Assembly: GCA_947568835.1 (NCBI GenBank)
Contig: OX387607.1
Location: 16,233,701-16,297,700 of the forward strand
DNA length: 64,000 nt
Source: Protonemura montana
Taxonomy: Eukaryota > Arthropoda > Insecta > Plecoptera > Nemouridae
Direction of reading: 5' to 3'
In this document: one piece after another, positions 7,690 through 64,000 of the stretch
Layout of the letters: each line of letters begins with the position of its first letter
How positions within the stretch are numbered: position 1 is the stretch's first letter
Program-made: the position numbers and the translations under genes
The notes under the pieces: model-generated
Seen by the model: only the letters and a program-made list of their open reading frames with translations
The model's database searches: none
Told to the model about the DNA's origin: nothing

Positions 7690-8693
7690 ACTTACAGCAC
7701 CTTAATTAACTTATAGCACCTTACAGCACCTTACATCACCTTACAGCACCTTAATTAGCTTACAGCACCTTACAGCACCTTACATCACCTTACAGCACCT
7801 TACAGCACCTTAATTAACGTATAGCACCTTACAGCACCTTACAGCACCTTACAGCACCTTACAGCACCTTACAGCACCTTACAGCACCTTACAGCACCTT
7901 ATAGCACCTTACAGCACCTTACAGAACCTTACAGCACCTTACAGCACCTTACAGCACCTTATAGCACCTTACAGCACCTTACAGCACCTTACAGCACCTT
8001 ACAGCACCTTACAGCACCTTATATCACCTTACAGCACATTACAGCACCTTACAGCACCTTAATTAACTTACAGCACCTTAAAGCACCTTACAGCACCTTA
8101 CAGCACCTTACAGCACCTTATAGCACCTTACAGCACCTTACAGCACCTTACAGCACCTTACAGCACCTTACAGCACCTTACAGCACCTTACAGCACCTTA
8201 ATTAACTTATAGCACCTTACAGCACCTTACAGCACCTTACAGCACCTTACAGCACCTTACAGCACCTTACAGCACCTTACAGCACCTTACAGCACCTTAC
8301 AGCACCTTACAGCACCTTATAGCACCTTACAGCACCTTACAGAACCTTACAGCACCTTACAGCACCTTACAGCACCTTATAGCACCTTACAGCACCTTAC
8401 AGCACCTTACAGCACCTTACAGCACCTTACAGCACCTTATATCACCTTACAGCACATTACAGCACCTTACAGCACCTTAATTAACTTACAGCACCTTAAA
8501 GCACCTTACAGCACCTTACAGCACCTTACAGCACCTTATAGCACCTTACAGCACCTTACAGCACCTTACAGCACCTTACAGCACCTTACAGCACCTTACA
8601 GCACCTTACAGCACCTTAATTAACTTATAGCACCTTACAGCACCTTACAGCACCTTACAGCACCTTACAGCACCTTACAGCACCTTACAGCAC
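7690..8693. repeat. 10-bp minisatellite (ACAGCACCTT)n, about 1 kb
   Basis: About 100 near-perfect 10-bp units. Rare variant units recur in the same order about 418 bp apart: the ACAGAACCTT variant at 7921 and 8339, and the ATATCACCTT variant at 8021 and 8439. Part of the array has therefore been duplicated as a block. Interspersed TTAATTAAC interruptions mark the block boundaries. Confidence 0.97.
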
Positions 8694-11342: not shown

Positions 11343-14300
11343 TCAGGAACTCGACGCTGTTACGCCAGCAACTTCTGTCAAATTAGAAGTCTTGACAGGA
11401 TAAACCTTGCCCATAATCCTGTCCCAATCCCCAGCTGTCATGCCATCGCCTCCATCTTGTACCCCCCTGGCCTCCCCATCCCTCGCCCTAAACATCCTCG
11501 CCCAGGGTGCACCATACCCACTCCCAATACCGCCATTATTCCCAATGGGGGCCGCAAAGTTGTCACTGACAACGCCCCCACCCCCACCCCCGCAGTTGCT
11601 ACAGCCCCCCGACGGAGCTTTGTAACTCCCACTGCCACCCGAAGACGAGGAAGAACTCGAGCCCCCAGAAAACGGGGCACCATAACCGCTACTAGGAGGT
11701 GAACATCCCCCACCTCCACAACCCCCAGACATGGGAAGTCCATAGCTAGAGCTGGGAGGTGTAAGACCACCCCCGCCGCCCCCGCCGCCCCCGCCGCCGC
11801 AACCACCACCACAGCCGGCCCCACCAGACCATCCGGAGTCGCCCATTGGCCCGCTGGACCATCCGCTCTGACCACTGGCCGGGTAGGGACCTCCGCTCAT
11901 CATCATGACACCCTTCATGGGCCAACCCATCATGCCACCTCCACCTTTACCACCCCCAAACAATCCACCCCCACCCCCGCCTCCCATACCACCTCCCTTG
12001 CCGCCTCCGCCAAACATGGAGAAGAGTCCCCCGCCTCCCATTCCGCCCCCTTTACCGCCACCACCCCCACCCCCACCCCCACCCATCATGAACTTCCTCA
12101 AGAGCCCGATCAAAGAAGGAAGCGACATAATAATTGATACCAGACCTAAAATCTTGGCCTTGATAGCAATGACCTTGGCGATCAGTGCTATGAACGGTGA
12201 AATGATCATCTTGCCCATCATCATCATTTTCATCGCTTTCATCATTTTCATCATCATTTTCTTCATCATCAATCCGCCCAATTTCTTCTTCTTCTTCTTC
12301 TTCTTGCCCCGACCTGCAAAAGAAAGTGCATTTGTGAATAATCTCGATTCAACGGAGATGGAAAGACACAACTCGGCCGTGAAAACGCATTGAAAATAAA
12401 GAAACTGTTGGGTATTTTATTATTAACAACACTATAACCGTCTCAAAATTTGATGCACAAACGGGGACTCGAACCCCGATCTCCACCTGTCGCGGGTGTT
12501 GCTCTGAACCATTGAGTTATTTGGATCCCGATCTCCACCTATCGCGGGTGTTGCTCTAACCAATTGAGCTACTTGGACACTGGCTTTTTGAGATGATTTT
12601 AGTGTATTTGAGTAAACCTAAGGTAACACTAAGGTAACACTAAGGTAACACTTAGGTGTTGTGGGCCAACATTTCATATAGCAATGAAATCAAACTAAAC
12701 CCCGGCCCTCGGTGGGACCCAGTGGTTAATTTGTGCGTAAACTCACGTAAACTCCGTTTATCTACCTATTTTCATGCGTAAACCCCGTTTACTCACCTTC
12801 CCTATTCCTATACCAGTAACCGCAGTAGCCCGTGTAAATGATGTGATTTCTAACAATCGTGTAAGCCAAAACAATATTTTTAATACCAACATGCTTCAAT
12901 AGCAAGAAAAGCCGAGTTTTATGTTATGTCTAACTCTAAGGTTTGTAGCAATAACTGAGATTCACGCGAATGCATCGAGGAGCTCCTAGCATCGTTACAT
13001 AGTATTCCTAGCTGTGCGCGAGCCGCAACCCTTTGATAGGCAGCGCCGACGAAACAAAGCCAGCGTTCGGACCAACATTTTCCGAAAACTTAAAAGCTAA
13101 ACTTTCAGAAAAATTTCCCCTTTTTTCCTGGGACACAGCTTCATATTTTTCATCCCCACTACTCCCATTTATTTAGTAAAAAATCCCTCAATCATGCAGT
13201 CGCGATGCTTTCTTAAACCGAGGAAGTTGCGTTCTTTTCATCGGCCAACATGCCGCTAGGGAAGCGCGGGGTCGACGCTGGTGGGTCGGGCTCACACTCA
13301 AACAGTAAATCCAAAATTACTTGTTTTTTTACTCAAGTTAATGCAGTAAGTGTTGTTGATGTCAATGCAAGTTCATGTTCTTCGGCAACTGGGAATGGTC
13401 GAGATGCAGAGACGTCGTTGCCCGAAAGAGAAATCGCCATGGTCCAGAATAGTATGGTTCTCGAAGGTAATTCAATTATGATAGTATAAACGTACAATAA
13501 AATAAATAGAACTACGCACTTGACACTGCCCTGTGAGCTGTGAAATTGCCCATGGTATACATATCGGTAAATAGGTTAATGGTGTAAAAGCGCACCAAGG
13601 GCTGGCTACCGCCTGCCCACACGCTCTCACGATCTTGCGAAGAACGATATACATAATAAAGCATGACATATCCACCAATCCATGCTATCAGGAGGTTGCT
13701 CACCTATAACCATCCCACTAGGTACCAAATTCTTAAATGGCGCACACTAGTCTCCTCCAACCCCCCCCCCCCCCCCCACACTGTTTCAATAAAGTTAGGG
13801 TTTACCCACCTTTTCCGATACAAATTAACCACTGGTGGGACCTACCAGAATGCATATGAAGAGTTAGATTTGCTCGCTGCCCATTCCTTAGCAACACAAG
13901 AATCGACGCACAAATACCCTCGAGAGATATAATTGGTTAAAACCACTTCAATTTGTGGGGAAAAGCTGGGAAACTCGAAAATCTGCGCTTTTTGAACGAA
14001 ACTTTGGCTTGAAAAACAATTTTTCCTAATTTATAAATATTTTCCAAATGCGAAACCGAAAAACGTCAAGTTTGAATTTTTTTTATTTTTGCGTCGTAGG
14101 AGTTTGAAATTGTTTTTGATATTATGACTTTAAGGAACGCAAATAATAACACATTAATTTTGGTTGGGTTTAACCTCTTCAATACGATTTATTACATATA
14201 AGGAAGTGGATGAAAGTAAGCCTTCAAATCTAAAGAATAACAAGGTTGAATATCTTCAGCTTTACCTTCTTCATATTCGACCGGAACACCGAAATCAACC

Positions 14301-15523: not shown

Positions 15524-15936
15524 GTGACGTGATATAGCGTCACTAGAATCAGAGTGACTGTGAGTATTCACAGCCTCTTGGTTCTACTCCTTGGAGATCC
15601 GTCATTCTCATGAAATACACTAAAATCGTCTCAAAAAGCCAGTGTTTAAGTAGCTCAATTGGTTAGAGCAACACCCGCGACAGGTGGAGATCGGGGTCCA
15701 AGTAGCTCGATTGGTTAGAGCAACACCCGTGACAGGTGGAGATCGGGGTCCAAGTAGCTCAATTGGTTAGAGCAACACCCGCGACAGGTGGAGATCGGGG
15801 TCCAAGTAGCTCAATTGGTTAGAGCAACACCCGTGACAGGTGGAGATCGGGGTCCAAGTAGCTCAATTGGTTAGAGCAACACCCGCGACAGGTGGAGATC
15901 GGGGTTCGAGTCCTCGTTTGGGCATCAATTTTTCAA
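15524..15936 (+). repeat. tRNA-like composite element (copy 4)
   Basis: The left arm (about 15528-15615) matches that of copy 5 almost base for base and contains small hairpins (GTGACTGTGAGTATTCACAG). The internal inverted-repeat end CACTAAAATCGTCTC follows, then five 52-bp tRNA-like units (starts about 15645, 15697, 15749, 15801, 15853). Only the last unit has a full B box (GGGGTTCGAGTCC) and the acceptor end TTTGGGCATC. The anticodon loop lacks U33, so it is not a usable tRNA. Confidence 0.88.
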
Positions 15937-16910: not shown

Positions 16911-17516
16911 GTGACCACCAAACCGTTTGGCGTGTTGGAAACAACGGTCCTCATGAGATCACCGAAGTTAAGCAAGACTGTGCTGGGTCAGATATTGGAT
17001 GGGTGACCATCATACACATGACCAGTTCTGTTCGGGAGAGAGGTTGGAGGGATTAAAGTTAAGCAACACTGCGCTGGGTCAGGTATTGGATGGGTGACCA
17101 TCATACACATGACCAGTTCTGTTCGGGAGGGAGGTTGGAGGGATGAAAGTTAAGCAACACTGCGCTGAGTCAGGTATTGGATGGGTGACCATCATACACA
17201 TTACCAGTTCAGTTCGGGAGAGAGGTTTGAGTGATGAAAGTTAGTACAGCAACTTCACTCGCCTTGCTTGTCAACCTCTCGACAGCATGGATTTGTGGAG
17301 GAATCCCGTTGTTCGCGTTGTACCGTCCTTCGGAAGGGACGTTAAGCCGGTGGTCCCCTTGGTCTTCGACAGGAGTAGGCTACGTGCCGGCACCAGGTTT
17401 TTTCTCCTCCCTTCTAAGCTCGGTAAGGTTTAACATCATCCACTCATTCACCGACGCCATTAGACCAGTGCCACAAGGCTTGTTATCAAAACAGTGCGTC
17501 GTTAAACACAATGAAT
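16911..17516 (+). mobile_element. 5S-derived SINE with tandem 5S segments (copy c)
   Basis: The head matches eukaryotic 5S rRNA: GAGATCACCGAAGTTAAGCA, then a GGTATTGGATGGGTGACC-like segment corresponding to the 5S internal control region. Further 91-bp units follow, each repeating GTTAAGCAACACTGCGCTGG and GGATGGGTGACC. The SINE body and tail come next. The tail ends GTTAAACACAATGAATG. This is the SINE3 type of organisation (5S promoter plus LINE-like 3' end). Confidence 0.88.
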
Positions 17517-29342: not shown

Positions 29343-32260
29343 AGTGATTGTGGTAATTTTCTTTAAATTTTCGCTGGAGATGAGATACACTCGTCTGTTC
29401 TATTTCGCGGCGTTTGAGTGAACTAATTGAAAATGTAGCCAATTAAACGTCACTTTATCGTGAGATCAGAAAATGTGCAAAACGTAAACTTCTTCCTATT
29501 TTCTAGACCTAACCTATTAGCCACTCATCATACGCAACGATGATACACTTACGGAAATGCACAATAGCTCCGAAAATTGCATAATTCGTTGAATTTACAC
29601 GCGAACCGGCACACGGGCCTTTGTGCCTCGACCCCTACCGAAAAGAGTTCTCACGTGAAATTTTAAAACTATATCAAACAATTATTTATTAATCGGGTAC
29701 AACGGGTCATGAGCGTACGCAGTGACGAGCATGCCAATCCAAAAGTACACAGCCGAGCACAATTATTAATCGTGTTCAGTTTCCATTTCGGTTTCGTACC
29801 ATTTTTTTTACAGACACGCTAACCTCATTCCGTTGACTGCAATGCCGAAAATTCACACACTTAACGAGCAGGATTCTTACAAGAAGAAGATTACTCTCGA
29901 CGGTCCTAGCCGTGGACCGTCGTGTCGGATGCCTTACATATATTTAAACGAAGACACAGTACCCGACTTGACCAGTACGAACTTAACCACTTGCCAGAGG
30001 TAATCATAGAAAATTGCACAAAAACTTTATCAATCAAAGCTGTTCAGGTATTTAGCTTACGTCGATAAAACGGGCTTAAAAAAACGCTGCTAATTCAAAC
30101 CATCAATCCATCTTTGACACAATAAGCGATGCATATGATTTTCAAACAAAACAAGACAAGAAAGCGCTTAAAGGCTGTCTAAATATAAAAATTAATATGT
30201 TACAACAATTCACCTGCAAGCCAGGGAATTTTAATTCAACTGCTAGTTTAACAATTGACCCACACGCAGCCAAGAAATGAGTAAGTGGTTTCCACTAAAC
30301 ACACATAGACAGGATTGGGAACACCGGTGCACGTAGCCAACCAACCTCTCGAGAACCTACCTACCTCTGCGGCTAAATGATGTCGCTCCTTACCTTCGCC
30401 GTTAGATTAGAACTCGATGGGTGCTAAAAAAGCATTCCTACAACAACCGTGAAGAATCGATACTACCGATAACTTGTAATCAATAATTCTTGAGATCAAA
30501 ACTGACTTTCAGGGTTTGGTATTGTAACGGAAATGGCAGCCATGATTCGGGGATTGAAAACAGCTGTATCTGACAGCTACACGAATTCACAGGTTATGTT
30601 CACATGGTTTGAACATTCATGGGAGCGGGGAAAACGTCAAACGACGGTAATTACATGTGTGGAGCGTATTTATTGATACATTTGAAACACGAAAAACTGT
30701 AATTACATTGGTAGGCATAAAATTCTGCTCGTTGGTATTTGCTTTTGAGAAACATTATCACGATTCAATCAGGTGGAACCACATCCTGTGCGAGTACACA
30801 GAAACGCAACTTAAAATATGTAGACCTAAATGTTGCAGTAAAGTGTGTTAAAGCTAAGACTCATGCACCACCTAATTTCATTCGTGGGCGTCTGCTAATG
30901 ATTTGCCTAAAAGCATAATACTTGATGAGAATGCTGGTTTTTTTTTCCCGTGTGTAGGGAAAGGGTTTGATGTTTCGTCTTTTATAGGTTAATGTCTTGC
31001 TCTTGAGGTGGTTAACACGTACTTCAAGTAATGGGCAGTCTTTTCGTGGTACAGTGGCGTATTGCGTTTTAAAAGCTGATAGGAAGACGGGCCAGTGGCG
31101 ATGTAAATGTATTATTATTATTGAATTGGCTTCAACTCTTGTCTGAAGATAAAACATGCGTACTCCAACGTATTTGCAAGTTTCAGCAAATATCATTGAA
31201 GTCTTGGCACTCGCATATAGGTTTGCAAAACTATAAAATAAATCCATTTTCTTGTTTATACCCACAGCAGAAAGTAATCAATACAAAAAAAGGCAGAACA
31301 GTTTTTGAAAACGTCACGGAGGACATTTTTGAATGAAAATGGATACGATCTTCGACTTTACCTTGCGAGGATTTTAATTTGAACAGATGGAGCTAAATGT
31401 TACATTGTTGCTCAATGACAAAGCGGCTAAATTTCGTTGGTAATTTCGTTGAACGTGTAGAGTTTTTTTCTCAAAAGGTCTAATGAGTGACCGCTAATTT
31501 CCCAAACGATCCGCCACTGCGTCGTCCTTTGGTTCATAAAACCACCTCTCGATTGATATTCGGTACAACGGTCTGGCACTCGGCTCATCTCTCACGCATC
31601 TAACGGGTTTACCCATATTTTTTTTTCACCACGGATATTATTTTCGAAGCCCTCTGGCAAATTTGATTCTAGTTGTGTTACTAACGCACTATACGCGAAC
31701 GTGTACTGCGTATGCACGCACTAAATGATGGGTTTTATACGGGCGCTAGATGAGCTGCAGGTTGTTTTCTACATGCATTTAATCAGACAAACTGGAGTGG
31801 ATACTTGATTGACTTGATTCTATAGCCCATTGTTGTAGTGCATTAATCTGCTGGTGCTGGGATGATAGTCACCTCTCGATGACCGTGTGATTCCTTGATG
31901 GGCAACATACTCGTGAGAAGTGTAATTAAGAATTCTTGCTGGGATGATGTTTAAAGTTTGATTGGTTTTATGTTGGTATTAAAATGCAGGTGCTTTGGCC
32001 AGCGGTTTCACTGATATGGAAAGTATCGTATTATGGCAATGGCTTATTTGGCTTATTAGATTATGGCAATGCCCGTGTTTGGTAAATAACTCAAGTAACT
32101 ACTTAAGAATAATTGGGTAAATAATTGATAAATATAAATAAATAAATAAATAATTAACGTAAAATGAAATATGGCCGTGTGTAGGTAAATATGATATTAA
32201 TTAATTTGGCCTGGCTTTTCGCAACAGCGAAAGTCACAAAATGGTTTCCTATCCCGATTA
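29343..32260. other. noncoding stretch downstream of Osiris gene 3
   Basis: No convincing gene. A plus-strand TATA-like sequence near 29938-29947 is followed by ACAGTACCC and a donor-like CAGAGGTAATC near 30000; this could mark an unrecognised transcript but no coding exon follows. (AAAT)n near 32130-32150. Confidence 0.4.
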
Positions 32261-33445
32261 TCAGACGCGGGAATCAGCTGACTTCATCGTCTCCAGAAAA
32301 TCCGAGTAAATTTTCTGATGTTCCATTTTCTCCTCGTGGCTATGAATCGCGTCTCCGAACTGATTGGAAGTGACATTCTTATAGGTCATTGAAATGGACG
32401 AAGATGATTTCGTTGGATTGGAAAGCTCTCGAGAAATTGGACTTGGACTTTGATTGACGCTCACGATTTTGTTGCTCCCTTCGGTCGATTTGGCATCCGA
32501 ATGAGTTTGAGTGCCACGCGAGATCGGTACCTCGTTGAAAATCTGATTGGGCCGTTCTTGAATCGGCATTGAAATATAATTATTGAAATTATAAATCGGC
32601 GCTGCACCAATTTGTGGTACCAAATTCGGAGAGGAACCATTTTGAACCTGGCCATTGACTGAGTCTTGGTTCGGCAAAACTTCTCTGCGTTCATCATGCA
32701 TTTGCCTCGTTGCGTGCAGATTGTTTTGTTTGAAATCACTGTTCGGTCTTGCAGTAGTAACCGTGGCATGTGAACGCGTTGACAGATGCAAATCTTCAGA
32801 CAATTCAGGTACCCTAAGAGTGGGATGATTCAGAGGAAGTGGTGTGACAAAGTAATTGCTTCTCACTGTCACCTCCTCCATACGTTTATGGGGGTCACTG
32901 TAACTCAGAAACCGAGTTCTTGGATATGTCTTCAATTTACGCGGTGGTAGTAATCTACGGCTAGGGTCGTTACCGCGCGACTGCTCATTGGCGCCGCGTC
33001 GATTTTGATTTAAATATGGCGACTTTTCATTCATGAATCCCCAATGGGGCGTTATTTTCAAGTGACTGCTATTCGGTTGATCGACCTGTAGCCTTGACGC
33101 ACCTTCCGAAGATGTTCCACTCTGTTGCCGTTGTCCGAATGCTTGACCTCTATTGTTAGCATTCATTGCCAACCGAGCAGCCGTACGAGTATCATCATGA
33201 AACTCATCTGCCCGCAAACCTGTTGGGGACTCGGCACTGGGATCAAGCCAAGATCGCCGGTCTTCCCGTAAATCATCGCCGAAATTCAGGCCAACTTCTT
33301 CAAATAAAGACAAACGATCAAAAGTCGGTATGTCATCGTGACGTTTCTCATCTGACAGCTCTCGGACGTTACCCCCGATCGATTCACGGCCATCCGGATG
33401 TTGGGGCCAGGAATGAGACCCTATTCCGGCCTCAGTCCCGTCATG
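32261..33445 (-). CDS. readthrough extension of Osiris gene 3 (394 codons after TGA)
   Basis: Directly after the TGA at 33448-33446 the same frame stays open for 394 codons to a TGA at 32263-32261. The product is polar (rich in Ser, Asn, Pro, Arg, Gln), with stretches such as DRLSLFEEVGLNFGDDL and no transmembrane segment. No ATG occurs in the first part of the open region, so independent initiation near its start is unlikely. An alternative phase-1 acceptor at 33422-33421 (AATAG) would splice it in and skip the TGA, but it lacks a pyrimidine tract. The TGA is followed by C, the leakiest stop context known in animals. Confidence 0.6.
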   Translation of the reverse strand, partial: HDGTEAGIGSHSWPQHPDGRESIGGNVRELSDEKRHDDIPTFDRLSLFEEVGLNFGDDLREDRRSWLDPSAESPTGLRADEFHDDTRTAARLAMNANNRGQAFGQRQQSGTSSEGASRLQVDQPNSSHLKITPHWGFMNEKSPYLNQNRRGANEQSRGNDPSRRLLPPRKLKTYPRTRFLSYSDPHKRMEEVTVRSNYFVTPLPLNHPTLRVPELSEDLHLSTRSHATVTTARPNSDFKQNNLHATRQMHDERREVLPNQDSVNGQVQNGSSPNLVPQIGAAPIYNFNNYISMPIQERPNQIFNEVPISRGTQTHSDAKSTEGSNKIVSVNQSPSPISRELSNPTKSSSSISMTYKNVTSNQFGDAIHSHEEKMEHQKIYSDFLETMKSADSRV

Positions 33446-36400
33446 TCATGGCTTGTGGGGGTAGCTCCTGCGATAGGGATTCGAGTGGTGAGATGGATCC
33501 ACCAGCCATTCTGTTGGAGGGTGCTCGTGGTGCTTGGGCGAGGGGTGGCTGCGTTTTTCCCAGTGGCTCGGAGGGCTGATGACGAAGTGGTGTGATGGCG
33601 TCTTCTCGCCGCTGTCTACGAATCCTGAGAAAGACCAGTCAAGAGTTAGTTGTTAAATAGTGTTAATAACTTTCAGCGTCCCTTTCTTCCTGGAACAAAA
33701 TATTACAGTGCTTTTTAATTTTTTTAGATGTACATTTTTAGATATTATTCAGAGTGCAGGATTTTAACCTCGCGGGAAATTCTGCTTTGAGAGCAAATCG
33801 GCGATGTTAATTAACTTGAAAGTAATAACTGCAGAGGACACTCGACAAGTTATTACGATTTTTTTATTTTGTCACCAATTCATTAAATAAATACCGTATA
33901 AAACCGAGCATCGGTACGCTCAATTTCGATGTTCGTAAATAGCGAGTACGTGAATTAAGTGGGTTCAGTCTTCGTCGCTCTCAGGTGCAGGTAATGTTCA
34001 GGTTTATCAAGTTATCGCTACCGAACCCAATGCTTTATCAATGGCAATGCCGACCCATTTAAAAACATTTCAAAACAAAACAAACCGATTTCTTCTTATT
34101 CATTACGAGGAGCGGTCGTTTTAGATTGTCACAAACAAAAAGAAAAGTCACGTGCATGATTGGACAATCTTGCGTTGATTATTGTCATTATTTTCGTGCA
34201 AACACACAAAACTGCAAAGTGAATGAAACAATTAAAATTAAGTAGATTGCCCATGTTTGGTCTTTGAAACTTAGTTGAGGACCTCAAAGACTTTACCGCA
34301 CGGCGACGAAAGAGCACGGAAAAGATTGGACAGCGCCAGTTTTATATCTCTTACTATGATCGAGGATTCATGTGACATTTCCATTGTGTTCGCTATATTG
34401 AGCGTAGATCACTTTGCTATTCACAAAACAATTTAATTCGATCGATCAATCAACCTTTAATAACACCTCTGTCATCTGTCACCGGTGACGTCTCGACATC
34501 AGCTGTCATCTAAATTGTAGGTGCCAATTTGAATAATCGTCGAAAGCCTCCGAGCGACGACACTAGCTCGCTCGCTCGCCGACCGCGCGAACTTCTAGGA
34601 CATATGTCGGTCAATTGGTCACGGCCACGCAGCGACGAAAACAGAACCGCGGACGAATTGGGCATCAAGAACTTGGCCGTTTTGCCGCCGATGTCGCGTC
34701 GATTGTCGTCGAATTTAACGGTAAAAAAAAATGTCGCCAAATTTGAAATGACACTGGCGCCTGCGTCGTGGCGTTTAGAACGAAAGGCTAAACGATCCAA
34801 CGTGCAGAATTCTGATGCGATTTTGACGCAAATCGAGTCTAGTTTGGGAATAATAAAAAGTCTTGACGACAACGCAGTTTGATTTAAACGACAAAACAAA
34901 TTTATTCTCTGTTTCTGCGATAAATATTTGACATCTTGGTTCGTATGCAATTGTTTTTAAATGGATGGCTCCTCCATTTGAAAAGGCGCTTTAAATTTCT
35001 GGCACCTCCACCATCGCCCGAAATCAGTGTTTCTAAGAAATATCCTCTAAGCGAGCTCCAGAATAAGTTAAATCCTCATTTCTCCCCATACTTTACACAA
35101 ATACAGTTGGCTTAGAACTAAGTGGGAGCGGTCAGTCGGTGTTCGACCCTCGCTTGTGTCCCGCTAATCTGGAAGAGAAATATGTACAAGGAATTAATTT
35201 AGTGCGGCCAGAGCTGTCAGAACGCCGTCGCAAAACAACAGAAATCAATTTTACGCAAGAAAAATGCTGAGTCAAAATGCCAGTAGAAAACACAATGCAT
35301 GGAATAAATTGAAATAATTCTTTATTATGTTAGATTCACTGGTTCAGTTCATCTCGACACACGCGTGGCTCTAGAATTGCCCACGAATTTATCGACATAA
35401 TGTAATTTCTTCAACCAATTAATAAATACCTATTGTTATAAAAGCTTCTGTCAGAGATTTCAACCGTATGCTGGAGTGGACCTCTTGAACTCGCTCAAGA
35501 TCGCAAGACTTACCCGTTTTTTTGTCAGAAAAACCGGAAGTGTTCCCTAATTCGCGCAGCCAACTAAACGTACACCCACCGATTTATCTCAAAACTCAAT
35601 TCCCTCGCTTCCCTGTCTTAACCCGATTTACCTTTCAACATACTCTTGAGCGCGCCCAACTTGGCGAATGCGAACGCCAGGATGCTGAGCGTGACCGCTT
35701 TCCAGGACAAGACAGTGGTGAATGTCAAGACCCCCGGCAGGAGTACACCCATCAGGAGCACCTTCAGCCCGATCACCAGCTTGATCAGGAAGAACAGGAT
35801 CTTCTTCTTCTTCTTCTTGGCGCGCCCTGCGAACAAAAACATTTTCATCGTTAGTTGATTGTTGTTGCAAATATTTCATGAAAAAGCTGCATTCGGAGGC
35901 AATTTAGATGGCAGTGCGATGCTATCATTGAAAATAGGTCTGAGGACAGTACTTATTTGGGGTCTTCCACTAAAAAAAATGGGTAAAAGCCGACCTCTGC
36001 TTCTGGTTTTGTTTCTGCGGTCAAATTTAACGGGTTCATTCCAAGTTAGCTCCTACCGAAGAGTGGGCACTAAAACCCTAAAAACCTAGTTTTGAGCTAC
36101 ATGTAGCTTTTCATACGAATGAAATTTGTGATCAAATTTCTGCTGATCAAAGATTTCCCCATCCTGATTTTTGTGATCAAAGTAACTGGTTTACGGCCTC
36201 TAAACTGGCACGTGTCTTTCATGCAATCCAAAAACGTTGATGAGAAAGCATTACCCGATTTATCCTTACAAATGATTAGCCCCCGATGAGATTGTAATAA
36301 AGTCTCCATCAATTATACCGGGACAATTTAAACATAGCACACAAATTCAGTTCGCCATCTTCATTGTTTCTCTGAGCAGTAATCAGCAAACAATGCTTGC

Positions 36401-38087
36401 CCTAACCACCGTCAGACGCTGGCGGTTTTTGCACAATGCCTGCGATTATTTATCAATTTCTTTAGATTACAGCCCCCGGCTGGATTACCGCGACAACGTC
36501 TCGGGTTGTCGGTCAAACGGTTTGACCCTTCAAAGCAACACCGCTCACCGCAATTGTGTGCAATAAAGACACGCCCCTCTGCGTTTGTCACGTTCATAGC
36601 ATTTCTTATCCTTCCGATTTTGGAGCTACCTTTAAGCTGCCGCAGGTAAAACGTTGAGGCTTGATCAAGATCGTGGAGATATTTTAATAATTACCACATA
36701 TAAACTAATCAATCAGTTCAGCGCCGAAGTAATCTGTTTCTGTCATTTGTTATTATCGTATTTGCCGTTAAAATCTTTGCTACTTTGTCCTGGCAATGAT
36801 TTTCAGATATTTTCCGTACAGCCTAAGACATGAGTTTACCGTCAAATGTCAATTAAAATCAAGTTTAATGACAAGTAAAGCAAGATCAAAGAGTGTGGTA
36901 ATTAACCAGAATAATCAGGAAGATACTGAAGTTTTGCTCTAGGTTAGAATGCCTCTCAATTCTTTAGGATACAGCTTCAATAAAATCATGCCCATGTGAA
37001 GGCTTACTTTACCGAACGGTTTGTCGTGTTGGAAACATTGGTTCTCATGAGATCACCGAAGTTAAGCAACACTGCGCAGAGTCAGGTTTTGGATGGGTGA
37101 CCATCATACACATGACCAGTTCTGTTTGGGAGAGAGGTTGGAGGGATGTAAGTTAGCAACACTGTGCTGGGTCAGGTTTTGGATGGGTGACCATCATACA
37201 CATGACCAGTTCTGTTCGGGAGAGAGGTTGGAGAGATGAAAGTTTAGCAACACTGCGCTGGGTCAGGTAATGAATGGGTGACCGTCATACACATGACCAG
37301 TTCTGTACGGAAGAAAGGGTTGGAGGGATGAAAGTTAGTACAGCAACTTCACTCGCCTTGCTTACCAACCTCTCGACAGCATGGATTTGTGGAGGAATCC
37401 TGTTGTTCGCGTTGTACCGTCCTTCGGAAGGGACGTTAAGCCGGTGGTCCCCTTGGTCTTCGACAGGAGTAAGCTACGTGCCGACACCGGGTTTCCGTTC
37501 CTCTCTTCTAGTCTAGGTTAGGTTCATCATCATCCACTCATTCACCGACGCCATTAGACCAGTGCCGTATGACCCGTTATCAAAACAGTGCGTCGTTAAA
37601 CACCACAAATAAATCAAGACTTACCTTCATCTAAATCCGAGGGATCCGACACAATATCGTTCATGAACCCGTACGCCTGCTCTAGTTGGTCCCAAAGCCA
37701 AGACTTGGGGCGAGCAACGTTCTGCACCGAGAAGTCCTGAAGCTCGTTGGTTGCCTCCAGGAAAGTCTTCTTGGGTCGCAAGTCCATCGCGTCCTGCACC
37801 TGTCTGACCCGGCTAACCGGAGGATGCGAGTGATTGACAGAACCACCCTGACCAGTCGCCACCGGGATGTAAACACGCTTCGCTGATCGCTCGATTTTCA
37901 ACACCGGCAACAAATCAGAAAAAACACTGCCACTTAGCGTCGAACCGGCACCGTTTTCCGAAACATTTTCATTCACTTTTGCGACACTTGCGTTATTTTC
38001 GCTTGCGATTTTCCGAATTTCCACCGCATTTTCAGCGGCGACGAGAGCGACGCACGCGAAAATGAGCGTTAGACGTGTAAACGCCAT
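33446..38087 (-). CDS. Osiris-like protein 3, three exons
   Basis: Exons 38087-37625, 35826-35632 and 33624-33446 give 278 aa to the first stop. Exon 1 has a signal peptide (about residues 1-18), lacks the C-x7-C pair, and ends DLDEG. Donor GTAAGT, acceptor GTTCGCAG, phase 1. Exon 2 starts RAKKKKKK and encodes the hydrophobic segment (ILFFLIKLVIGLKVLLMGVL...). It ends at donor AAAGGTAAAT in phase 1 and is symmetric (195 nt). Exon 3 has a strong acceptor (GGTCTTTCTCAG) and is rich in His, Ser and Pro; it reaches TGA after SYPHKP. The frame continues beyond that stop (see the extension entry). The AQxLAY motif is absent. Membership in the family rests on gene position, intron phase, and the basic-hydrophobic module; the sequence is divergent. 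Confidence 0.8.
34510..34950. other. GC-richer open segment inside intron 2 of gene 3
   Basis: Both strands are open here: a plus-strand frame to 34882 (up to 117 codons; first ATG near 34603) and a minus-strand frame 34950-34510. Composition is richer in GC than the surrounding intron, with an acceptor-like TTGTAG near 34515-34520 on the plus strand. The plus-strand product is Arg/Ser-rich with no domain I recognise. It could be a nested exon of another gene or chance; evidence is weak. Confidence 0.2.
37010..37615 (+). mobile_element. 5S-derived SINE at the 5' splice site of Osiris gene 3 (copy d)
   Basis: Full-length copy: head CCGAACGGTTTGTCGTG, 5S-like segment (GATCACCGAAGTTAAGCAAC), further 91-bp units, then the body (GGAAGGGACGTTAAGCCGG) and tail AAACACCACAAATAAATC. 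It is antisense to gene 3. Its tail ends about nine bases from the exon-1 donor. Likely target-site copies are AAGGCTTACTT (36999-37009) and AAGACTTACCT (37616-37626); they differ by two transitions, and the second includes the donor (CTTAC is GTAAG on the minus strand). Confidence 0.88.
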
Positions 38088-39121: not shown

Positions 39122-39376
39122 AGTTTGTATGATGATTTGAAAGTAGATGGGATTTTAGGGATGAGTAAAAGGTATTGATAGAAAAGAATTGATGATGTAA
39201 ATAAAAATCTGATATGACCAGACAAATCAATTTAACATTTTCTCAGCTGTTAAGTCATTTATGAATACATTTTGATAAAAAATTGTTAATCGCATGAAAA
39301 TCGGCAACAAATCTCTGCTAATCGGACCGATTTTATCATTTATTAAACCGAAATTTCCAACTGGTAAACCAATTTT

Positions 39377-39576
39377 NNNNNNNNNNNNNNNNNNNNNNNN
39401 NNNNNNNNNNNNNNNNNNNNNNNNNNNNNNNNNNNNNNNNNNNNNNNNNNNNNNNNNNNNNNNNNNNNNNNNNNNNNNNNNNNNNNNNNNNNNNNNNNNN
39501 NNNNNNNNNNNNNNNNNNNNNNNNNNNNNNNNNNNNNNNNNNNNNNNNNNNNNNNNNNNNNNNNNNNNNNNNNNNN
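39377..39576. other. assembly gap, 200 N
   Basis: Exactly 200 N bases, a conventional placeholder length, so the true size is unknown. Open frames spanning it are artefacts. The flanks show no coding sequence. Confidence 0.99.
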
Positions 39577-40077: not shown

Positions 40078-40592
40078 TCTTGTGTTTAACGACGCACTGT
40101 TTTGACAACTGGCCATGCGGCACTGGTCTAATGGCGTCGGTGACTGAGTGGATAATGATAAGGATGATTAACCTAACCTAGCCTAGAAAGTAGGAGGGGA
40201 GACCCGGTGCCGGAACGTAGCCTATACTCCTGTCGAAGACCAAGGGGACCACCGGCTTAACGTCCCTTCCGAAGGACGGTACAACGCGAACAACAGGATT
40301 CCTCCACAAATCCATGCTGTCGAGAGGTTGATAAGCAAGGCGAGTGAAGTTGCTGTACTAACTTTCATCCCTCCAACCTCTCACCCGAACAGAACTGGTC
40401 ATATGTATGATGGTCACCCATCCAATACCTGACCCAGCGAAGTGTTGCCTAACTTTCATCCCTCAAACCTCTCACCCGAACAAAACTAGTCATGTGTATG
40501 ATGGTCACCCATCCAATACCTGACCCAGCGCAGTGTTGCTTAACTTTCATCCCTCCAACCTCTCACCCGAACAGAAATGGTCATGTTCGGGT
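40078..40592 (-). mobile_element. 5S-derived SINE (copy e)
   Basis: Minus-strand copy. The tail is at the left (GTGTTTAACGACGCACTG), the body contains the reverse complement of GGAAGGGACGTTAAG, and repeated 91-bp 5S-like units extend to about 40590 (CACCCATCCAATACCTGACC recurs at about 40405 and 40507). The extreme 5' head is missing or has diverged. Confidence 0.87.
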
Positions 40593-45969: not shown

Positions 45970-47178
45970 ACATTCAACTGTATCGGTTATTTTGTTTAAA
46001 AAATTGTGTAAAACCGTTTTTTTTTTGTGTTTTTTTTTCAAATTTAAAACTAGGACGCTTTTACTTGTCTCTCATTCTCTGCCTCTCTTGCTCGTCGATT
46101 CTTTGCCGTCGATCGCAGAAAAGCAAAGGAGATTGTTGCACTGTGATTGGTCACTCAAGTAGCTACCGATTTAGAAGCGTTGTGAAAGATCGGTGATCCA
46201 AGAAATGGAGATATATGTATACAAAATAGTTTTAGTGGAGCGTGACAAAATGTTTAAAGAACCACGGCGGGGATAAAAGAATGTGATTTGAATTGAAGCT
46301 TCTTAGCTGGCATTGATAATGTCATAGAAGAATATAATTCGCGGTCAGCGTTTAACAAAAAGCGTCAGTTTTATCACTGTTTATGGTGTTAGAAAAGACA
46401 TTTGGGATGATGTTGGACATTCTCTTTCTGGATCTCTGCAGAGTTTTTCCCTGCGATAATGTTGCAAATCATTCCGTTTTGCCGGTAAGATCTATTGGTT
46501 TAGTACATTTTGCTCTAGTTGGCCAACTAATTGCTATCACCAATAAACAAGCAATCGAATCAAACTCATTCATAATGTTTTCTACGTTTTAATTCCACAT
46601 GTCTAGCTTCGTAATTGATACATTACCTTTAAGACAATAACATATTAGTTACCTGTTTTTGTAATTAACTTCATTCAATGAATGGTAATCATATACATAC
46701 ATACTTGCATCAAAATCACCTGCGAGTACATATGTGTACAAAAAGCCAACTAACTTGTATGTATTATCAGTAAATATAAATTAAAATATTAAATAGAAAA
46801 GGAAGACTGTTTCCTTACAGTCATTGTCCCAATAAACTACTCTCGACTTCGATAAGAAAATATTTAATAGCTAAAAAAAAAACTCTAGTTCCATCGGTGC
46901 ATCAAATTACACTGCATTGGAATGCAATAAAAACGCATCATTGTAATAATGTCCGTAGTGTAATTGCTCTGAACTGGAGAGAGATTGTGTTGAGAAAGAA
47001 GTGCAGATTTGAATTGTTGCGTCTGAGTTATTGTTTGCTGCTGGCGATTTGATCTGATGGTTGTTGTGAACAACTTATTGGACAATTGAAGTCATTGCCA
47101 CGTTTTAACGAGACGACATTGAGCTCGCTTCGTATCCATCTTGTCTGGCCCTTGCCAAGATAGAACTCTAGAGACAAT
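45970..47178. other. noncoding stretch between Osiris genes 4 and 5
   Basis: No gene recognised. AT-rich with short ATACATAC-type repeats near 46693-46705. Confidence 0.5.
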
Positions 47179-47893
47179 CCGAACAGTCTGGCGTGTTGGA
47201 AACTCCGGTCCTCGTGAGATCACAGAAGTTGAGCAACACTGCGCTGGGTCAGGTATTGGATGGGTGATCATCATACACATGACCAGTTCTGTTCGGGAGA
47301 GAGGTTGGAGGGATGAAAGTTAAGCATTACTGCGCTGGGTCAGGTATTGGATGGGTGATCATCATACACATGACCAGTTCTGTTCGGGAGAGAGGCTGGA
47401 AGGATGAAAGTTAAGCAACACTGCGCTGGGTCAGGTATTGGATGGGTGACCATCATACACATGACCAGTTCTGTTCGGGAGAGAGGTTGCAGGGATGAAA
47501 GTTAAGCAACACTGCGCTGGGTCAGGTATTGGATGGGTGATCATCATGTTCGGGAGAGAGGTTGGAGGGATGAAAGTTAAGCAACACTGCGCTGGGTCAG
47601 GTATTGCATGGGTGACCACCAAACAATTTGGCGTGCTGGAAACACTGGTCTTTGTTAAAGCAACTTCACTCGCCTTGCTTATCAACCTCTCGACAGCATG
47701 GATTTGTGGAGGAATCCTGTTGTTCGCGTTGTGCCGTCCTTCGGAAGGGACGTTAAGCCGGTGGTCCCCTTGGTCTTCGACAGGAGTAGGCTACGTGCCG
47801 GCACCAGGTTTTTTCTCCTCCCTTCTAGACTAGGTTAGGTTCATCATCATCCACTCATTCACCGACGCCATTAGACCCGTGCCACATGGCCCC
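47179..47893 (+). mobile_element. 5S-derived SINE with the longest 5S-unit array (copy f)
   Basis: Head CCGAACAGTCTGGCGTGTTGG, then a 5S-like segment. GGATGGGTGA motifs recur at 47259, 47350, 47441 and 47532 (91-bp steps), with a fifth unit near 47606 shortened by a 17-bp deletion. A second partial head (CAATTTGGCGTGCTGGAAAC) is embedded at about 47624-47645. The body and tail follow, and the tail is truncated at about 47893. Confidence 0.9.
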
Positions 47894-56328: not shown

Positions 56329-57650
56329 TTAAAAACTTGATGCGCCGAGCGGCCGATGATAGTAAACCTGTTGTCGATCTCTTATCTCACTTCCATCATT
56401 CACACTTGGCCTCTGTCTATCATCTTCGATCGATCTTCGATTGCCGGAGAATTTCTTGTACGCATCCCAATTCGCAAACACCTGCGTAGATCTGCCATCT
56501 TCGAAGCCGTTATTCGTTGCATGGGATTTTGGCAGGTTTATTCCCGCCCAATCAGAACCTTTGAAAACCTCGTTGTTGTAATGATTAATCATTCCCTTGT
56601 TGATATTTGACTCTCTACTGCTTTGCTCCTCTCCGTTCAAGAGATTCCTGTCCCGCGTTCCTGAGTTACCAACGAATTTATTTTTGCCAACATTTCGAGC
56701 GTACGGGTACGAATTACCCGCAGAATAAAGCACCGGCTTATTTGACTTTTTGCTGTCAGAAAATTCATAGCCAGTTATATCGTTCTGATGCTTACTACCC
56801 TGATGTTCCCAATCCCCTTTGCCCCTTTCCAAGCTTCCTAGCAGATATCCCTTCGTACAATCGCATGGTCGCTCTTTATTCCTCTTTGCTTTACGTCCTT
56901 CTTCGCCGACCTCTAGAAAAACCCCTCTTGGTCTCTGATATCTTCCTGACCAACCATCAAACACACCCTTAGCGAGAGGAGATCGCCTCCTGTTTGCCGT
57001 CCTGTCTTCGTGATCGTCTATCCAGGAGTCGTCGATCCTGGCGATCATGTCGCTCCTGGAGTAGTGGTGCTCGGGCTCCCGTTTTAACACGATATTCGTT
57101 TGGGGTTTGTGTTCGGGTTTCTCAAAGAGCTTCTTCATGATCGACAATAAACTTAGCACCAAGGCGATCTTACTTGCGAGTAAAGCCTTGATGGTCAGAG
57201 CCTTGAGCACCGTAATACATTTGACAGCCATTGCTACCATCATCAAGAATAAAACACCTTTGATCTTCTTCTTTTTCTTACCACGACCTGATACAAAAAT
57301 ATTTTTTTTTAATTAACCACTCTCGTGTTTTAGTATGAGCAAACCAGTAAGAAATTATTTTTTACGGCTTTGCTGGCGAGAATTATTTTTCGATTACCTT
57401 CTTGGAGCGCCTGCAGATTTGTGATTTCACCGGAAGTGTCTCCGTCTTTGGGCCGATCTTTAAACTCTGTCGCCGTCTCGACCTCGTCTTGCTCGTGGGT
57501 TACGAGTTTCGGCGCAGAAACATCAACGCCGACCACTTTTTTCACATCGAGTTCTCCACTTTTGCCGATACTCAAACCAGAAGTTGATCCATAAACTGAT
57601 ACGGATACGATCACTAATTTTAACATTAGCTCTCTCATCTTTGTTGGCAT
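56329..57650 (-). CDS. divergent Osiris-like protein 6
   Basis: Two exons, 57650-57398 and 57287-56329, give 403 aa, with a very short 110-bp intron. Exon 1 encodes a signal peptide (MPTKMRELMLKLVIVSVSVY) and only about 84 residues. It lacks the C-x7-C domain and ends LQEG, with donor GTAATC in phase 1. Acceptor TTGTATCAG leads to RGKKKKKIKG, then a hydrophobic segment (VLFLMMMVAMAVKCITVLKA...ALLASKIALVLSLLS). The C-terminal region is long and polar, rich in Arg, Asp, Ser and Asn, unlike the glycine-rich tails of genes 1, 2, 4 and 7. No AQxLAY motif. Family assignment rests on the exon-boundary module and the location. The GTG-started extension to 57677 is less likely than this ATG. Confidence 0.83.
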
Positions 57651-58673: not shown

Positions 58674-59267
58674 TTACTGTTCGGGAGAGAGGTTGGAGGG
58701 ATGAAAGTTAAGCAACACTGCGCTGAGTCCGGTGTTAGATGGGTGACCATCATACACATGTCCAGTTCTGTTCGGGAGAGAGGTTGGAAGGATGAAAGTT
58801 AAGCAACACCGTGCTGGGTCAGGTATTGGATGGGTGACCATCATACACATGACCAGTTCTGTTCGGGAGAGAGGTTGGAGGGATGAAAGTTAAGCAACAC
58901 TGCGCTGGGTCAGGTATTGGATGGGTGACCATCATACACAAGACCAGTTCTGTTCGGGAGAGAGGTTGGAGGGATGAAAGTTAGTAAAGCAACTTCACTC
59001 GCCTTGCTTATCAACCTCTCGACACCATGGATTTGTGGAGGAATCCTGCTGTTCGCGTTGTACCGTCCTTCGGAAGGAACGTTAAGCCGATGGTCCCCTT
59101 GCTCTTCGACAGGAGTAGGCTACGTGCCGGCACCGGGTTCCCCTCTTCCCTTCTAGACTAGGTTAGGTTCATCATCATCCACTCATTCACCGACGCCATT
59201 AGACCAGTGCCGCATGGCCGGATGTCAAAACAGTGCGTCTTTAAACACCACAAAATAATAATAATAA
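58674..59267 (+). mobile_element. 5S-derived SINE with target-site duplication (copy g)
   Basis: 5'-truncated copy starting inside a 91-bp unit (CTGTTCGGGAGAGAGG). It includes three further units with GGATGGGTGACC-like motifs, then the body and tail ending AAACACCACAAAATAATAAT. It is flanked by TCTTGTCT at 58666-58673 and 59268-59275; the similarity extends to 12 of 14 bases. Such a duplication with a 3' A/T-rich tail indicates LINE-mediated retrotransposition. Confidence 0.9.
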
Positions 59268-62309: not shown

Positions 62310-63171
62310 CCGGCCTAACCTCAATAACCTCAGACGCTCCTCCTCCTTATGGAGGCGCCGAAGATTATCCAATGGGCCGGGGCCCGCGCGCGGCGGCCTA
62401 CGGGGATGACGCACCCATCCTACGCACTAACACATGAAGAAAGTCTAGCCGAGGAAATGGGAAGTGTGTGTGCGTCTTGGCTTGTTGAGAGTTGAGGACT
62501 CTGGTGTCTGCCCGATGTCCGGTATTGACAGCTAGTCGATGGTATTGTGATTTTTGTGTATTTGTACACAGATTGAGTTTAAGACGATGTAATTGTAAAT
62601 GGATTTCAATGCCAATACCGAACAATTGTTTCAAATATTCAACCGTAGGTCGCTATCCAAAGGATCTCAATATTAAAATTAGAATATTAGTTATTTCAAT
62701 TAATATTTCCGATCCATTAGAACGTGGTCGATGATAGGTATTTCACGTTGCCGTGCAATGTTTTAACAAGGAATTTCTTCAGCTTCCAACGAGTAACGGA
62801 ATCGCGCGAGTCGTAAATATAATTTATAATAACAAGGCTAAGCAAACAAATAATAACAATCTCTGAGTCTCTACGACGTGTCTATTCGAGACCGGATGAG
62901 TAACAGTTCTCTGTGACGATGTCAGATCATTTATTCAAGATGGACACCGAAAAGGTCGGTTTGGTTCGTTTAAAGTGCATTTCAAAAATATCATATTTTC
63001 TGTTGTGAAAATTTGGACTTAATACCAAGGGAAATGCACAACTCGACAAACTTTTTCAGGAACAATTCATGTGGTTGTTTGAGTGTAAACAATTTCCTTC
63101 ACTTCTCTGATAGACTGTTGACACATTTCCAGCTTGAACCAACGGGAAGAAAATGTTGCCCAATACAGATA
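62310..63171. other. noncoding stretch upstream of Osiris gene 7
   Basis: No gene recognised. A GC-rich patch (GGGGCCCGCGCGCGGCGG-like, about 62380-62400) lies roughly 100 bp beyond the TATA box. Confidence 0.5.
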
Positions 63172-63888
63172 AATTCTAGCCCAAATACACCTCAATTCCA
63201 GCCCAAATATAGCTAAATTCCAGCCCAAATACATCTCAATTCTAGCCCAAATACAACTGAATTCTAGCCTGAATATAGCTCAATTCTAGCCCAAATACAC
63301 CTCGATTCCAGCCCAAATACAACTGAATTCTAGCCTGAATATAGCTCAATTCTAGCCCAAATACATCTCAATTCTAGCCCAAATACAACTGAATTCTAGC
63401 CTGAATATAGCTCAATTCTAGCCCAAATATATCTCAATTCCAGCCCAAATACATCTCAATTCTAGCCCAAATACAACTGAATTCTAGCCTGAATATAGCT
63501 CAATTCTAGCCCAAATATATCTCAATTCCAGCCCAAATACATCTCAATTCTAGCCCAAATACAACTGAATTCTAGCCCAAATACAACTGAATTCTAGCCT
63601 GAATATAGCTCAATTCTAGCCCAAATACATCTCAATTCTAGCCCAAATACAACTGAATTCTAGCCTGAATATAGCTCAATTCTAGCCCAAATATATCTCA
63701 ATTCCAGCCCAAATACATCTCAATTCTAGCCCAAATACAACTGAATTATAGCCTGAATATAGCTAAATTCTAGCCCTAATATAGCTAAATTCTAGCCCAA
63801 ATATAGCTTAATTCTAGCCCAAATACAACTGAATTCTAGCCTGAATATAGCTGAAATCTAGCCCAAATACAGCCCAATTCTAGCACAT
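63172..63888. repeat. 22-bp minisatellite
   Basis: More than 30 units of AATTCTAGCCCAAATACA plus a variable end (TCTC, ACTG, CCTC). They alternate with a variant AATTCTAGCCTGAATATAGC. The two types recur in a semi-regular order, giving a higher-order pattern of two to five units. The array nearly reaches the end of the window. Confidence 0.96.
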
Positions 63889-64000
63889 AATAGAGGTGAA
63901 TTCCCGTCGAAACGGCTTGGGAGTGGGCAGCGAGTTTATAGCCACGCGTGTAACCGTGCTGTATGTGGAGTCGGATTCTGTTTGTAGGTTCCGAGTAGAG

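Follow-up and report, generated by a model that had tools for sequence, protein, structure and literature searches.

Do ribosomes stop at the TGA that closes a gene of the Osiris cluster in the plecopteran Protonemura montana, or do some of them read on? The question is raised by C5:16233701-16297700, the 64-kb stretch analysed here (the window; C5 is contig OX387607.1 of a 258-Mb genome in 34 contigs), where a minus-strand gene with a DUF1676 domain reaches TGA-C and then stays open for another 394 codons. An earlier note on this DNA had proposed stop-codon readthrough, and judging from the sequence we also regard readthrough as the likeliest explanation of the long frame, with a confidence somewhat above even. 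Positions are those of the window unless given with C5.

The gene and the frame behind its stop

From 33445, directly after the TGA, the frame runs for 394 codons down to the stop at 32263-32261, which is the longest stop-free run of the whole window (the next ones are 357 and 327 codons). When its composition was simulated with a dinucleotide Markov model, none of 235,750 runs reached at least 394 codons, the maximum being 328. The open frame is beyond chance, in line with what the earlier note had expected of random sequence. Over the same stretch, the two other sense frames contain 15 and 35 stops and the three antisense frames 15, 23 and 13. We also read 18 other genes of the cluster, starting at the acceptor that precedes the hydrophobic exon and ending with the first stop, and found post-stop open reading frames (ORFs) of 1-112 codons. 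These controls are the 22 genes whose acceptors were used for scoring (see below) minus the studied gene, gene D, 16410909 and 16353962; reading from the acceptor at the last two seemed to enter an intron. Eleven of the 18 have an AQXLAY-like motif near their stop, and the seven others (labels 2, 5, 10, 13, B, G and H) were taken as read, so that some of their stops may be intronic. Scanning for AATAAA and ATTAAA found no poly(A) signal inside the 394-codon ORF, and the first one downstream lies 1,662 nucleotides (nt) past the TGA, compared with 15-1,359 nt in the 18 controls.

UGA-C is the leakiest stop context in animals, and the C at 33445 indeed follows the TGA directly. A following cytosine is counted as a favourable context in PMC5100048, and UGA is given as the commonest readthrough stop in PMC4528330. 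Rfam, taken up to E 5, gave three matches within 30000-34000, none of them a selenocysteine insertion sequence (SECIS) family, SECISearch3 itself not having been run.

The gene model was built from splice consensus and the DUF1676 match (Table 1). Its splice sites are GTAAGT..CGCAG and GTAAAT..CTCAG, its exons join in phase 1, and the joined exons give 278 residues up to the TGA at 33448-33446. Residues 144-215 match DUF1676 (PF07898) with 41.1 bits against a cut-off of 24.3, the Kyte-Doolittle mean over 19 residues is 2.52 at residue 164 (a putative transmembrane segment, by hydropathy only), and the hydrophobic N-terminus seen by eye is a putative signal peptide. The gene is in the syntenic Osiris cluster: of the 44 genome-wide DUF1676 matches listed, counted by exon, 38 fall at C5:16.226-16.473 Mb and surround it. 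By eye, the 278 residues include a single cysteine (residue 12), and the typical two-cysteine region of Osiris proteins is absent. Therefore, we name it a DUF1676 gene of the Osiris cluster. The 258-Mb genome has a single copy of the locus, and there is thus no second one showing a sense codon at the TGA.

Acceptors were scored with a position weight matrix built on the acceptors of 22 Osiris genes, by which 29,383 AGs were ranked; no acceptor was identified for cluster genes 16469539 and 16457910, which are outside the 22. The acceptor that the earlier note had called strong, with the exon start at 33624, ranked at the 99.3rd percentile. Rebuilding the protein from its exons returned the same phase-1 junction between exons 2 and 3, the same position of the TGA and the same lengths of 278 and 673 residues, the latter counting the TGA as one residue.

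We also tried to use NPYRRSYPHKP, for its resemblance to AQXLAY, as a sign that the ancestral C-terminus of Osiris proteins lay at the TGA, but this test did not discriminate. The pre-TGA window HHSNPYRRSYP scored 6.6, second of all windows and far under the 20.4-27.5 of 13 real motifs, and the extension windows AARLAMNANNR (6.9) and EHQKIYSDFLE (6.5) scored about the same.

Table 1. Window positions of the features of the studied gene.
Feature	Position	Strand	Description
Exon 1	37625..38087	-	ATG to GTAAGT donor, phase 1; hydrophobic N-terminal segment; lacks the two-cysteine pair
Exon 2	35632..35826	-	GRAKKKKKK and hydrophobic segment; carries most of the DUF1676 match
Exon 3, first part	33446..33624	-	Last residues of the short form, ...NPYRRSYPHKP, then TGA; acceptor at the 99.3rd percentile
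TGA-C	33445..33448	-	First stop 33448-33446, +4 cytosine 33445
Predicted stem-loop	33408..33440	-	12 base pairs, 1x1 internal loop, 7-nt loop; +9 to +41 (U of UGA = +1); -19.2 kcal/mol
Weak AG proposed in the earlier note	33421..33422	-	In frame; 20.8th percentile of 29,383 AGs
Rival in-frame acceptor AG	33298..33299	-	Exon start 33297; 564-residue isoform without the TGA
Second ORF	32261..33445	-	394 codons, hydrophilic, no cysteine, no Pfam match; stop 32263-32261
Tandem second stop TGA-TAA	32258..32263	-	Read from the sequence
First poly(A) signal (ATTAAA/AATAAA type) past the start of exon 3	31778..31783	-	Motif scan

Probable coding character of the extension and a predicted hairpin

We asked whether the extension looks like coding sequence. 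First, its three-base periodicity (chi-square 44.0, simulated mean 8.8) exceeded that of all 1,000 of 1,000 simulated stop-free sequences. Second, its GC content was 0.517 in the first 147 nt past the TGA and 0.471 over 1,182 nt, versus 0.211-0.456 and 0.306-0.449, respectively, after the 18 other stops. When we checked how rare such values are, 0.517 was reached by 6.4% of 7,603 non-coding windows of 147 nt and 0.465 by 5.1% of 1,919 windows 1,035 nt in length. On this reading of the sequence, the long frame is very probably translated in some form. Conversely, the ORF could be untranslated, or the TGA could be an assembly error or a codon subject to adenosine-to-inosine (A-to-I) editing, a set of explanations that we find improbable: an untranslated ORF would fit the absence of Osiris-type synonymous-codon bias, whereas the length and the periodicity of the ORF point to coding; an assembly of 258 Mb in 34 contigs, with one copy of the gene, does not look like a poor one; and editing is not favoured, the TGA lying outside the predicted +9 stem.

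If translated, the ORF might also be a second cistron, or part of an independent gene that has a first exon of its own. According to PMC4528330, flies have dicistronic genes, and eight in-frame ATGs occur within the ORF. However, the first of them is at codon 94, which leaves 93 open codons before it (chance 0.024), and no in-phase acceptor of the ORF exceeds the 85th percentile except the one with exon start 33297, making this explanation the most remote of those that we considered.

The tail has no cysteine, its mean Kyte-Doolittle value over 19 residues never rises above 0.46 and serine makes up 11.9% of it; from this composition it is probably disordered. Long fly extensions are described as often disordered in PMC4528330, which gives 4 to over 1,000 residues as the range of extension lengths. 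Three matches of the YXX-phi type (YISM, YKNV and YSDF) are found in the tail, and the short form also has such matches by eye (YIPV and YGFM); PMC9870157 links this kind of motif to the trafficking of Osiris proteins.

Protein searches in collections with few or no insects returned no relative of the extended form among the best 7,994 candidates, none of the extension alone among 2,303 and none of the short form among 1,250. Comparing the extension with viral contigs gave 6 pattern matches and the short form with prokaryote genomes 35, none of them a relative. Since the collections hold few or no insects, these null searches are no evidence for an absence of relatives.

A stem-loop is predicted from +9 past the stop, and it is the most stable 46-nt fold of exon 3. 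It is more stable than the folds of the 18 control post-stop windows, the best of which reaches -14.9 kcal/mol. Its energy was attained by 9 of 800 GC-matched windows, by 0.27% of 2,998 random cluster windows and by 1.0% of 4,645 Osiris coding windows, and a fold as stable occurs at 6 of the 2,268 TGAC sites of the 264-kb cluster, the studied site included. In a context of 180 nt, pair probabilities were 0.82-0.94 for 11 of the 12 pairs and 0.61 for the outermost. According to PMC5100048, structures are predicted for 10% of fly readthrough candidates and for under 1% of other transcripts.

Readthrough weighed against its rivals

Several observations speak against readthrough. First, a synonymous-codon score trained on Osiris genes (5,155 codons in total, a set that also took in 16 N-terminal stretches; the result for exon 2, which was read out of frame, is left aside) does not favour the frame: over the 345 codons past 33299-33298, frame 0 scores -0.077 while the others score -0.035 and -0.066, and over the first 49 codons it is the worst of the three (-0.113 versus 0.152 and 0.057). 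Second, GC at third codon positions (GC3) drops at the TGA, with 42 of 58 codons upstream and 172 of 394 downstream (Fisher p 6e-5). Third, the periodicity of the first 49 codons is not significant (p = 0.089), although the test is weak at about 49-58 codons because the 58 codons before the TGA gave p = 0.147. Fourth, most annotated fly extensions are 8-300 residues long according to PMC4528330, and thus shorter than 394. Fifth, the z score of the hairpin depends on the window, with -2.35 at 46 nt and -0.66, -1.07, -0.30 and -0.22 at 56, 66, 86 and 106 nt. Sixth, the stem-loop filter described in PMC13170385 asks for a single stem-loop that is at least 35 nt long, has a loop of 3-10 nt and bulges of at most 2 nt, and lies no more than 60 nt from the stop. 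Judged by that description, the 7-nt loop and the 1x1 internal loop fit, but the 33-nt stem-loop is 2 nt short and a second small stem lies in the 60-nt window. Moreover, in PMC13170385 the filter is passed by 1,012 fly genes, of which only 50 overlap readthrough lists, so a hairpin alone says little. Finally, a usable in-frame acceptor lies 49 codons past the TGA, at the 98.0th percentile of the 29,383 AGs.

The codon and GC3 results have a parallel in gene B, an uninterrupted long-tailed Osiris gene of the window. Its last exon (56329-57287, minus strand) holds 318 codons after the acceptor, with a GC3 of 0.67 in the first 90 codons and 0.44 thereafter and no stop where GC3 drops, and its codon score in frame is -0.051 versus -0.091 and -0.095. 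Since GC3 drops there without a stop, the GC3 and codon-score results are compatible with coding of the extension. Long tails may thus recur in the cluster, in gene B besides the studied gene; the two tails share no detectable similarity in a direct comparison (best E 2.6). As for the hairpin, the evidence is suggestive only, because the fold was found after looking and is unremarkable in longer windows.

The acceptor at 33299-33298 underlies the main rival to readthrough, in which exon 2 would sometimes be joined to 33297 instead of 33624, the TGA would be skipped and UGA would always terminate. The resulting isoform of 564 residues, with a tail starting EVGLNFGDDL, is open to one terminal stop. 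The acceptor itself (cgacttttgatcgtttgtctttatttgaag, followed by AAG) has a long pyrimidine tract and the exact phase required by exon 2; in a leave-one-out comparison it outscores 4 of the 22 Osiris acceptors, and the next best of the 23 in-phase AGs is only at the 84th percentile. Also, the published readthrough screen of PMC5100048 drops cases with a high-scoring 3' splice site when the intervening stretch is without coding conservation. On the other hand, chance alone would place about 0.46 sites as good among 23 in-phase AGs, and the upstream acceptor at 33624 is stronger (8.99 versus 6.81). Besides, splicing does not need the 49 codons between the TGA and the site to be open, which has a chance of 0.13 with their own dinucleotides and 0.07 with those of intron 2, and the GC of this stretch is above that of all 18 control post-stop stretches. 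All considered, we think the splicing explanation unlikely, but less so than any of the other rivals.

Two further routes around the TGA were rejected. The earlier note had named a weak acceptor at 33422-33421; it is indeed very weak (20.8th percentile), and the far better in-frame acceptor at 33299-33298 had been overlooked. An intron inside exon 3 that removes the TGA is also unlikely: the exon has three GTs, all in phase 0, the best scoring -0.2 compared with 7.8-14.0 for the training donors, which were picked by best consensus match (15 of 16 kept, plus exon 2), some of them doubtful, so that these scores are flattering. Among all GTs, this one does exceed the 99th percentile (-2.4), and the ORF holds no phase-0 acceptor at or beyond the 97th percentile.

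The earlier note had also listed a recent nonsense change. Here, a long ancestral protein would have gained the TGA (for instance from CGA) and been truncated for good, the downstream frame being still undecayed. The coding look of that frame agrees with this, as does the long uninterrupted tail of similar composition in gene B, by which long-tailed proteins exist in the cluster. Against it stand the absence of a second stop over 394 codons, the sharp shift of GC3 at the TGA and the hairpin and C context, which would be left as coincidences. Moreover, PMC5100048 works with an estimated 17 such recent changes in Drosophila melanogaster versus hundreds of readthrough candidates. A recent nonsense change or fixed truncation is, in our opinion, improbable.

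We favour readthrough over alternative splicing because it explains the C after the UGA, the +9 stem, the continuity of the frame through 49 codons, the GC right after the stop and the tandem second stop, and because under splicing the first three become coincidences; the weights that we give to all the explanations are judgements and were not computed. Thus, the proposal of the earlier note holds as the best explanation and gains from a predicted hairpin at the expected spacing, from coding-like GC directly past the TGA and from the tandem stop, with the reservation that the acceptor at 33299-33298 could give a long protein without readthrough.

How could this work? From the open frame, together with the context of the stop and the hairpin computed behind it, we infer that the gene would be transcribed through the ORF and its UGA decoded at some level, the tail possibly having a function. 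Both ORFs would be on a single mRNA. Most ribosomes would terminate at the UGA and release the short protein, and a fraction would decode UGA-C by a near-cognate transfer RNA (tRNA), aided by the +9 stem-loop, which would sit close to where mRNA enters the ribosome when the UGA occupies the A site. This fraction would read on to the tandem UGA-UAA and make the 673-residue form with its long hydrophilic, probably disordered C-terminal tail. In this model, the one mRNA codes for a membrane protein of 278 residues and, through programmed readthrough of the UGA under stimulation by the hairpin, for a second form of 673 residues whose disordered tail bears YXX-phi type matches; we give it even chances.

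Should it be true, readthrough would add a level of regulation to an insect gene family that is sensitive to dosage. No readthrough report for the Osiris family was found by title in the literature searched, which is weak evidence of absence since most subscription journals and supplementary readthrough lists lie outside it, and the words Osi and Osiris are absent from the main texts of PMC5100048 and PMC3840789. If true, a long, hairpin-associated candidate would be added in an insect-specific family with no such report by the titles searched. The locus would also offer a natural and compact test of whether a +9 stem-loop programs readthrough outside Drosophila dfr, and it would show how over half of a protein could escape gene predictors that halt at the first UGA.

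Known systems and neighbouring features

The gene is a new readthrough candidate of an already known kind. In Drosophila kelch and headcase, a further ORF of the same mRNA is reached through the stop codon, with experimental support. Both are named as readthrough genes in PMC13170385 and PMC4528330 and belong to other gene families than the studied gene. A close parallel is Drosophila dfr/vvl, in which a stem-loop from +9 to +59 precedes an in-frame extension; PMC13170385 reports that deleting it lowers readthrough, as does moving the stem away from the stop by insertions of 3, 6 or 9 nt, and that it is conserved to +53 in 29 Drosophila species. Our locus likewise has a stable predicted stem-loop from about +9 past the stop and then an in-frame extension, but dfr has UAG and a longer stem-loop tested with reporters, whereas here the stop is UGA-C and the predicted element runs from +9 to +41.

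The Osiris family is described in PMC3284338 as an insect cluster of DUF1676 proteins with a signal peptide and a transmembrane segment, some paralogues lacking one domain. The studied gene resembles them in cluster location, DUF1676 and hydrophobic segments, and departs from them in the missing two-cysteine pair, an unclear AQXLAY motif and the extra 394-codon frame past the stop. In Nilaparvata lugens, PMC12825958 lists Osi16 with 662 residues and two DUF1676 domains, and Osi17 with 680 residues and a DM4_12 domain with four cysteines. The extended form is like these in length, and its extension has neither a Pfam match nor a cysteine.

The cluster is mostly on the minus strand, with adjacent plus-strand Osiris genes at C5:16325759-16327149 and 16339450-16341532 and a third one at 16467914-16469694. 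The adjacent pair recalls, by its orientation, the inverted Osiris 11 of PMC3284338.

Between the studied gene and its upstream neighbour, about 39376-39575, there are 200 N bases (an assembly gap or a withheld stretch). Five tandem arrays with units of 90-91 base pairs (bp) lie at 16965-17243, 37059-37336, 40358-40586, 47226-47615 and 58677-58983, one of them inside intron 1 of the studied gene. At three of the five, the start of the array overlaps an Rfam match to 5S ribosomal RNA (16917-17037, 37011-37126 and 47178-47298), so the arrays look like repeats derived from 5S in which the 3' part has been multiplied in tandem. Arrays with a 52-bp unit lie at 2104-2365, 12475-12577 and 15648-15905. 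Two of these three overlap Rfam tRNA matches (12454-12526, minus strand; 15852-15924, plus strand, tRNA-Ser(CGA) by ARAGORN), and they are possibly partly amplified tRNA genes or tRNA-derived repeats. Finally, we observed large arrays at 7691-8693 and 63158-63903, the former with a 10-bp unit repeated about 101 times and the latter with a 22-bp unit nested in a higher-order unit of 88 bp.

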